Assembly: GCA_003609755.1 (NCBI GenBank)
Contig: AP017991.1
Coordinates: forward strand, 904,001 to 968,000
DNA from: Planktothrix agardhii NIES-204
Lineage (GTDB): Bacteria > Cyanobacteriota > Cyanobacteriia > Cyanobacteriales > Microcoleaceae
Direction: 5' to 3'
DNA length: 64,000 bases
In this document: piece by piece, positions 57,801 to 59,569 of the stretch
How the letters are laid out: every line of letters starts with the position of its first letter
Numbering within the stretch: the first letter of the stretch is position 1
Made by a program: the position numbers and the translations under genes
The notes under the pieces: model-generated
The model's database searches: none
What the model saw: only the letters and a program-made list of their open reading frames with translations
Told to the model about the DNA's origin: nothing

Positions 57801-58135
57801 CTATTTCTAGTTTGATCGGGTTCTGGCCGTTAGTTATTGCTTCTGGTGCGGGTTCTAGTAGTCGTTGGTCATTGGGTACGGCTATTTTTGGGGGTTTATT
57901 AGCAGGAACCCTATTAAGTTTGTTAATTACTCCAAACCTTTATATTACGGTTAAAACCCTAGAAGAACGTTTTCTGAAAGGGAAAAAATCCGATAAATCT
58001 AATAACAATAAATCGGATAAAAATCAACCTCCCTCTCCACCGGAAGATCCCCATTCTCCGGGTAAAACTTCTGAGACTTTAGCCACCTCGGATAATGGTT
58101 CTATTCAACCAGATAGCAGTTTAAGTAAACCCTAA
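54821..58135 (+). CDS. RND efflux permease (AcrB/HAE1 family)
   Basis: A 1104-residue proton-driven multidrug pump with twelve membrane helices. Family motifs include FIKRPVLTTVCSILIILVGA at the N-terminus, the relay helix TLFACTLAAGLVVDDAIVVV with two Asp residues, and GLASKNSILIVEFANQLRDK in the second half. The C-terminal 50 residues are a charged Ser/Pro/Lys-rich tail (KSDKSNNNKSDKNQPPSPPE) longer than in AcrB. It follows the adaptor by 55 bases. Substrates are unknown. Confidence 0.95.
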   Translation: MLLFVQTFIKRPVLTTVCSILIILVGAISIPLLPITQLPNLANTQISIVGVNTGADAETTETTVTTIIEREINGVEGMKYLSSSTGNNGISNISVFFPNDVDRNIAQVNVQNRVAQAESNLPDVVRQIGLSVQASSPSILLVIGFYSDTDESGKPIYDTTFISNYIDLFIVDQLSRVPGVGQVTIFGERKYAMRLWLDPSRMAARGLTAQDVASALRTQNVQVGAGKIGQQPTPADQLFEIPLQAASRLRTVEEFEQMVLKTTDSGELITIKDVGRAELGAENYDLESTYNGKPAVGLGIYQLPGSNALETAAQLKATMAELSKNFPPGVNSQIAYDTTLFINVSLREVAITLIMAIALVVLVIFVFLQDWRATLIPAVAIPVALIGAMAGLKALGLELNTLTLFACTLAAGLVVDDAIVVVEAVMIKIEQGMKPLQAALDAMSELTGAIIATSIVLLAVFVPVLFFPGTTGVIYKQFAVTIIFAVVFSTFNALSFSPSMAGLLLRRQKKTGGPLGWFFDQFNRGFGWVQEKYAGVVTFLTKINALVMIIFVAGLAATVFVYQQVPSGFVPEEDQGYLIVIFRTPDGVSLNYTARAAEQIVDRTLAIPEIESVFAIPGFGFEGQNPSQGIAFVLLKPWDQRPDASQSVFGVLRRLNGSLQSIPEVQAFAVNAPPVQGLSTTGGFEFQLLDTTGNLPIQSLVENGNRLIGAANANPTFAGVFSQFSASKAQKRVEVLRDRANALNVDVNQIFSTLQTYLGSSYINDFVLGQRQYRVVAQAEKQFRARPEDITQLYVRSRDGEMISLSNLVKLTDFVGPETINHFNIFRSMLIQGNPAPGFSTGQAIAVMEKLASEVLDPGFDYAWQGSALEEKSSGGAAILIFGLAFIMAFLVLSAQYESYIDPMIIMLSVPLAVLGAMAAVWFRSNVLLQGTVWPLITNDVYVQVALVMLIGLASKNSILIVEFANQLRDKGLSITQAAIQAGEQRFRPIQMTAISSLIGFWPLVIASGAGSSSRWSLGTAIFGGLLAGTLLSLLITPNLYITVKTLEERFLKGKKSDKSNNNKSDKNQPPSPPEDPHSPGKTSETLATSDNGSIQPDSSLSKP

Positions 58136-58196
58136 ATTGTTACCGATCAATCATGATAGACTCAAGTTAACCCGGTTAGGAGGACTAGCATCCACA

Positions 58197-59147
58197 ATGG
58201 CTAAAGATGTTTTCCATCAACAGGTTAGAAATGCTTTAATTAAAGATGGATGGGTGCGATTCGTTTAACCAAAAATAAGCTGAAAAGATTATGGGACGGT
58301 TAACCCAGTTGTTAAGACTGGTGATAACTGATTACATTTATGGGTGAGCCACCATGCGGCAAGTCCCATCCCTCAAGTGCTGAGGTGAAAGCATAACCCC
58401 TAGTTTGTTTGGGTAGCATCCATCAGGCTAAAGCGGGGTTAAAAGGTAGAACTACTAGAAGCCAAATCCAGTAACTATCGAGCAAGAAGTCTATGCGTAG
58501 CGAAAGCAAAGATGTGTCTGAACCATCGTAATTTTAAATGGTGCAATGGCTAAATCAAGATTAAACCCGTTAAAAATACGGTAAAAGACTGATTAGCACC
58601 AAGCCAAAAGGCAAGGATAGGGCATAAGCGGTTCCATTCTCCGACTTATAAGCACCGCCCAATAAACCCGGTGGATAGCATCACGCTAAAGATTTCAAAC
58701 AAATGTGTAATCGGAACGAAGTAATCCCCATATATCTCTGGAGAGGTAGAAATCCAGTAAGTAGCTAACGAACGATATATGGGGAAGGGATGGTATCAAA
58801 AGCGAATGCTTTTTCGCATTAGCGAATCCATAAAATTACAAATTGATTTGGCGGCAGAAAGTGCGATCGGTGCAGAAAAAGATTCCGAAAAAATTGCTGT
58901 AGAAATTAAAAGCTTTATTGGAGACTCTGATATTAGCTCTTTTCACACTGCCTTGGGACAATATCTTAACTATTGTCAAGCCCTGGAAGAAAAAGAACCG
59001 GAGCGCATTGTTTATTTAGCAATTCCTTCTGAAACTTATAAGGATTTTTTTCAACTTTCTTTCATCCAACGTGCTTTGAGACGTTACCAAGTCAAGCTAA
59101 TAATTTATGATCCAAAATTAGAGGAGATTAAGCAATGGATAAAGTAG
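58197..59147 (+). pseudogene. xisH: xisH, interrupted by a 540-bp insertion
   Basis: The first 19 codons (58197-58253) read MAKDVFHQQVRNALIKDGW, the XisH N-terminus, then run into the insertion and stop at 58266-58268. From 58794 the frame resumes as YQKRMLFRISESIKLQIDLA and AEKDSEKIAVEIKSFIGDSD through to the normal C-terminus EEIKQWIK. Removing 58254-58793 rebuilds a full-length protein with the expected seven residues between GW and RIS. XisH has a PD-(D/E)xK-like core (E-x-K in VEIKSF) and was first linked to fdxN-element excision. AGGAGG at 58179-58184 supports the start. Without splicing the gene is inactive. Confidence 0.83.
58254..58793 (+). mobile_element. Group II intron-like insertion (5' domains) in xisH
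   Basis: The insertion begins GTGCGATTCG, the 5' consensus of group II introns, exactly after codon 19. It is dense in paired segments and has intron-like runs such as GGGCATAAGCGGTTCC and GGTGAAAGCATAACCCC, plus a terminal stem CCCCATATAT / ATATATGGGG (58726-58784). No reverse transcriptase is encoded and I cannot find a domain V/VI sequence. GGATGG occurs at both boundaries (58248-58253, 58788-58793). It is best read as a 3'-truncated ORF-less intron; a different element with a 6-bp target duplication is the alternative. Confidence 0.55.
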
Positions 59148-59470
59148 AACATTATCGACAATTGATTAAACAAATTCTGACCGAACACGCCGAGATCGCA
59201 ACGACTGAGGATACGGTGAAGGCAGAGTTAATCTTTGATAGTGAACATGACCATTATCAACTCGCTTATGTGGGTTGGCAAGGAGATAAGCGGGTATTTG
59301 GCCCGGTGATACACTTTGATATTCAAGAGGGCAAAATTTGGATTCAGTATAATGGGACTGAAGACTCTGTTGCCCAGAGATTGGTGGATATGGGCGTACC
59401 AACTTCAGATATTATTCTGGGTTTTCATTCCCCTTTCAAACGCCAATTTACGGGTTATGCAATGGGCTAG
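59135..59470 (+). CDS. xisI: XisI-like protein
   Basis: An intact 111-residue XisI. VEHYRQLIKQILTEHAEIAT, ELIFDSEHDHYQLAYVGWQG, HFDIQEGKIWIQYNGTEDSV and the C-terminal GFHSPFKRQFTGYAMG are family hallmarks. It overlaps the end of xisH by 13 bases, the usual coupled arrangement. The xisH/xisI pair is widespread in cyanobacteria outside the fdxN context and has been proposed to behave like a toxin-antitoxin unit. Confidence 0.93.
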   Translation: MDKVEHYRQLIKQILTEHAEIATTEDTVKAELIFDSEHDHYQLAYVGWQGDKRVFGPVIHFDIQEGKIWIQYNGTEDSVAQRLVDMGVPTSDIILGFHSPFKRQFTGYAMG

Positions 59471-59569
59471 TTTAGTTGTATAAATGATAAAAAAACTGGG
59501 CCGAAGTTAACAGGTATTATGATGGCTATGGTTAGTCGTAAACTTTCAATCATCAATCCTCTATAAAAT

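Follow-up and report, generated by a model that had tools for sequence, protein, structure and literature searches.

In cyanobacteria, xisH and xisI are known as fdxN-element excision controlling factors, and an excerpt of PMC2674450 describes their role in non-heterocystous strains as still to be disclosed. For group II introns, a passage in PMC4424553 says of the bacterial copies that most are truncated or inactivated. The locus described here lies in a window of 64,000 nt, the whole stretch of Planktothrix agardhii NIES-204 contig AP017991.1 that was analysed. It resembles the known xisH/xisI pairs in having Pfam XisH and XisI matches in overlapping genes, and it differs from them in that its xisH is broken. 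We put the probability at roughly 0.93 that this xisH carries a dead group II intron relic, which would have arisen by insertion followed by a deletion that included exon sequence. The features of the locus are as follows.

58197..58253, plus strand: 5' exon of xisH, codons 1-19, with IBS2 and IBS1 at its 3' end
58254..58812, plus strand: 559-nt 5' group II intron remnant, covering domains I-III plus the very beginning of domain IV, recognised through copies in the same genome
58532..58536, plus strand: EBS2, pairing with exon -9 to -13 (covariation over copies, pairing score)
58634..58639, plus strand: EBS1, pairing with exon -1 to -6 (covariation over copies, pairing score)
58788..58793, plus strand: second GGATGG, intron sequence and not a border (25 of 28 readable sister copies)
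58812..58813, no strand: deletion junction, lacking the remainder of the intron and 25 nt of xisH
58813..59147, plus strand: remaining xisH in the same register as the start codon (open frame; Pfam XisH 32-133 of 134)
59135..59470, plus strand: xisI, intact (Pfam XisI 1-110 of 110)

The ATG of xisH is at 58197, and codon 19 (Trp) finishes at 58253 with GTGCG next to it, exactly where the sequence-only reading had placed the split (58253/58254). Read through in place, the frame meets a stop four codons past the GTGCG start of the insert. The 5' exon matches positions 3-21 of the XisH profile at 22.5 bits, under the family cut-off of 25, while the C-terminal piece matches positions 32-133 of 134 with an E-value of 2.5e-40. 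XisH (PF08814) is present as these two pieces and not as one continuous protein, and the downstream open reading frame, with an intron-derived start at 58779, is 122 aa long. XisI (PF08869) was found as a full domain within one ORF (E 7.2e-47, 1-110 of 110). Its start at 59135 overlaps the end of xisH at 59147, so the earlier description of xisI as intact and still overlapping its neighbour (59135-59147) is correct. At this locus, xisH is a pseudogene.

The insert begins with GTGCG at 58254 and agrees with GUGYG, the motif at the 5' end of group II introns. A similarity search of the same genome (5.08 Mb, 5 contigs) recovered four further copies of the intron, three of which span the whole shared 5' 556 nt at 82-89% identity. 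These three are full-length and lie at the following places.

G000:C1 near 802503, 3176444 and 2459818: full-length own-genome copies

Each of them has an ORF of ~590 aa and a match to RF00029, which we take to be the domain V/VI model, at 63.6-65.5 bits (gathering score 40). The ORF that was scanned, in one copy, matched RVT_N, RVT_1, GIIM, and HNH. The reference copy, L007, is 2499 nt long, and the fourth own-genome copy is 5'-only (~315 nt, G000:C1:1551464-1551779) and begins with GTACG. The full-length introns share the GTGCG start and the EBS positions with the xisH remnant, but they keep the ~590-aa ORF and domain V/VI, which the remnant has lost. The full-length homologues, together with EBS/IBS pairing, confirm that the insert corresponds to the domain I-III region of a group II intron, as had been proposed; the individual domain names are inferred from position within the full-length copies. 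It had also been proposed that the insert lacks domain V/VI and a reverse transcriptase, and both are indeed absent at the locus and present in the sister copies, where the reverse transcriptase/maturase ORF is intron-encoded. Such ORFs are dispensable in some group II introns. Without domain V/VI, a 3' splice site, or an intact 3' exon, the insert is not a functional group II intron.

A covariance-model search had been suggested as a check on this identity. Rfam gave no group II family at gathering score in the whole window, and no group II model in 58000-59300 at E-values up to 10. Two matches on the minus strand within 58000-59300, cyano_het_sRNA (E 3.4) and U2 (E 4.1), were far under their cut-offs and were taken as chance. 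The full-length sister copies matched Intron_gpII only, plus a plastid group II D5 model in one of them, and no D1-D4 model. The missing match at the locus is therefore uninformative about domains I-III and does not refute the intron.

The targeting elements of the intron were located by covariation over 38 copies, namely the window copy, the four own-genome copies, and 33 of 35 fetched loci (L183 and L187 were left out here, as well as from the EBS scoring and the GGATGG counts below). For each exon position, we looked for intron columns that pair with it more often than expected. All twelve top-ranking exon-column pairs fall into two groups, exon positions -1 to -6 against 58634-58640 (EBS1) and exon positions -9 to -14 against 58530-58536 (EBS2). 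A loop near 58420, picked by eye as EBS1, was dropped when covariation placed EBS1 at 58634-58639. With EBS positions fixed after viewing the copies and G-U pairs allowed, 23 of 35 distinct copies were scored; the other 12 did not fit the EBS1 or EBS2 pattern and were left out. The 23 copies form 8 to 11 of 11 pairs with their own exons (mean 10.0), compared with a mean of 4.6 of 11 with the exons of other copies (506 swaps, two of which reach 11). The xisH copy forms all 11 pairs with its own 5' exon, two of them G-U, and this is reached by only 3 of the 127,974 13-mers on both strands of the window, its own site counted. A full fit of EBS1 and EBS2 to the xisH 5' exon points to normal group II intron targeting at this site.

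One full-length sister copy, in L006 (G000:C1:799000-806500, minus strand), lies in a ribonucleotide reductase small-chain gene, with Ribonuc_red_sm (Pfam) in pieces after the intron and a 92-aa piece without a match before it; the same gene also holds two group I introns and a LAGLIDADG ORF. In L172, from another species, the 14 exon bases ahead of the copy are identical to those of L006. In L180 (G006:C61:27700-31284), a sister intron retains 5' positions 1-511 as well as the domain V/VI end; the ~340 bp between these two parts is other sequence. It has no full ORF and is perhaps an ORF-less form. Among plasmid records, 32 match some part of 58100-59500 and none reaches 80% coverage; two Planktothrix agardhii plasmids match the intron part, at 85.9%.

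The empty site that the sequence-only reading had looked to in related strains exists. An uninterrupted xisH was found at the locus in a genome of the same species (G059) and in genus genomes G001, G003, and G005, and the G059 locus is identical over 600 bases to Planktothrix rubescens PCC7821. Genomes G002, G004, G006, G007, and G008 gave weak matches only to the xisH-xisI stretch, with no empty site to compare. The 5' insertion junction occurs in one of ten genus genomes, the window's own. In the empty sites, 25 nt separate the Trp19 codon from TTCGCATTAGC. The window lacks those 25 nt, and intron sequence there runs straight into TTCGCATTAGC at 58813. On the intron side, similarity to the sister introns extends to 58809, or to 58812 with the variant L168, through which the last 3 nt of the remnant were assigned; the junction ends GAATGCTTT, as in L168, which then continues differently. 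Beyond the junction, ~1.9 kb of intron is missing as measured on the reference copy, comprising the ORF, domains V and VI, and the 3' end.

We also kept the best 80 of 114 xisH relatives from other genomes, and 69 of these 80 gave an uninterrupted match, defined as one starting at residue 4 or earlier and ending at residue 130 or later. The remaining 11 were partial or in pieces, and Rfam gave no match on five of them. By BLAST, the remnant was absent from all of the best 80 xisH loci and from the same-species locus. A full-length intron in xisH, the intermediate, was not found in any genome searched, which tells against the history proposed below. In Argonema antarcticum (L132, 1336-3017), a different point of xisH carries an interruption of ~1.7 kb, which has inverted ends and an ORF that is presumably transposase-like.

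The sequence-only reading had further held that two GGATGG copies (58248-58253 and 58788-58793) mark the borders of the insert and that its exact removal rebuilds XisH with the right spacing. The comparison contradicts both. Of the 38 copies, 29, among them the window's, were readable across the stretch with the second GGATGG, and nine were not. GGATGG is at that position in 26 of the 29 (25 of 28 sisters), despite differing exons, while as a 5' exon end it occurs in the xisH copy only. The second GGATGG is thus conserved intron sequence, and similarity to the sisters runs past it. Cutting there gives 136 residues instead of 138 and leaves intron-encoded YQKRMLF where relatives have NITHDPLTI. 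The rest of xisH does resume in frame, as claimed, but not through a 540-bp excision with the right spacing, since the real junction is 58812/58813. The net difference of 559 - 25 = 534 nt is a multiple of 3, and the frame is therefore kept misleadingly. Resumption in frame, together with a short repeat that belongs to conserved intron sequence, can look like a clean splice border; comparison with empty sites and sister copies exposes such false borders.

A plausible history begins with a mobile intron encoding an RT-maturase-HNH protein, which would have inserted into xisH after codon 19 through EBS1 and EBS2. A later deletion would then have removed everything from the start of domain IV through the intron 3' end, plus the first 25 nt of the 3' exon. 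The loss itself shows in the comparison with sister copies and empty sites; that it was a single deletion event is what we infer. With no domain V/VI and no 3' splice site, the remnant should not splice. Within the own genome, the intron 3' end is confined to the full-length copies and one 72-nt relic at 76% identity (C1:293948), and an RF00029 search there gave four places. The lone domain V/VI relic, L155 (G000:C1:293942-294019, minus strand), scores 55.2 bits; by eye, there is no reverse transcriptase-like frame >150 aa near it on the relic strand. A search for the first 23 of the 25 lost exon nt with up to three mismatches gave no match in the assembly. By these searches, the locus is not one half of a split, trans-spliced group II intron: apart from the 72-nt relic, the assembly yielded no unassigned 3' part of this intron, and no second part with the remaining exon.

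We weighed three other explanations. Three full-length copies in the genome could in principle lend domain V/VI and maturase in trans to a remnant that still splices, and a part of PMC4424553 says that excision of Euglena group III introns, which have no domain V, is thought to involve trans-acting help. We consider this scarcely credible here, since the locus lacks the 3' splice site as well as 25 nt of exon, a search of the assembly did not recover the lost exon stretch at any other place, and the most that splicing could achieve is to link the 5' exon to a foreign one. On the assembled sequence, restoration of XisH by splicing is impossible, because the exon stretch is missing and help in trans cannot supply it. 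Of the two outcomes originally left open, splicing with outside help accordingly fails to restore XisH, and a dead intron beside a retained XisI without its partner is supported. It is also very unlikely that the remnant is an assembly artefact in which a full-length intron collapsed through similar copies elsewhere. Several copies of 82-89% identity are present in the genome, but the other copies were assembled in full, the contig is 4.78 Mb long in a 5-contig assembly, and the loss of 25 nt of unique exon is not what a collapse should produce.

The third explanation, improbable though less so than the others, is that a shortened XisH is made from the ATG at 58779 or 58806, with the intron remnant as its leader. 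The frame from 58779 is open for 122 aa, and neither another stop nor a frameshift occurs in the retained xisH part. Against G059, L060, and L062, synonymous/nonsynonymous differences number 8/1, 7/2, and 6/3 for retained xisH and 1/3, 3/4, and 7/8 for xisI. These small counts do not reveal relaxed constraint on xisH, and the low amino-acid divergence and open frame would also fit a shortened protein in use, which counts against a dead relic. Such a protein, however, would be without both the first 19 residues and NITHDPLTI, parts that uninterrupted relatives conserve well, and most of the divergence from the relatives may be older than the breakage, in which case the counts say little. Either the breakage of xisH is probably recent, or, as seems unlikely, a shortened protein is still made. 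If it were, it would act with XisI, and a host protein would owe its new N-terminus to a dead retroelement.

Under the dead-relic reading, xisI may be served by XisH encoded elsewhere, or may not yet have been lost. The genome holds three other full-length XisH matches plus a fragment at C1:1894811, and four other XisI matches. This is a case of xisI surviving, for some time at least, next to a broken xisH where the genome has further XisH copies. Relatives with solved structures were found for the intact XisH protein and for XisI (2inb, 2okf, 3d7q, and 2nlv among others). On the earlier suggestion that the two genes form a toxin-antitoxin-like pair, the analysis speaks neither for nor against; neither XisH nor XisI matched PADLOC-DB at E 0.01.

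Beyond the locus, this adds little: a further decayed group II intron copy and a broken xisH. Like other truncated bacterial group II introns, the xisH remnant is a fragment left in place without the parts for mobility or splicing, and what sets it apart is that its 3' end was lost together with exon. Incomplete reverse transcription would cost an intron its 5' end, so a deletion after insertion fits better here. A decayed retroelement copy in a dispensable gene is of a known and common kind, and with most bacterial copies truncated or inactivated, as the passage in PMC4424553 has it, the xisH case is an ordinary one.
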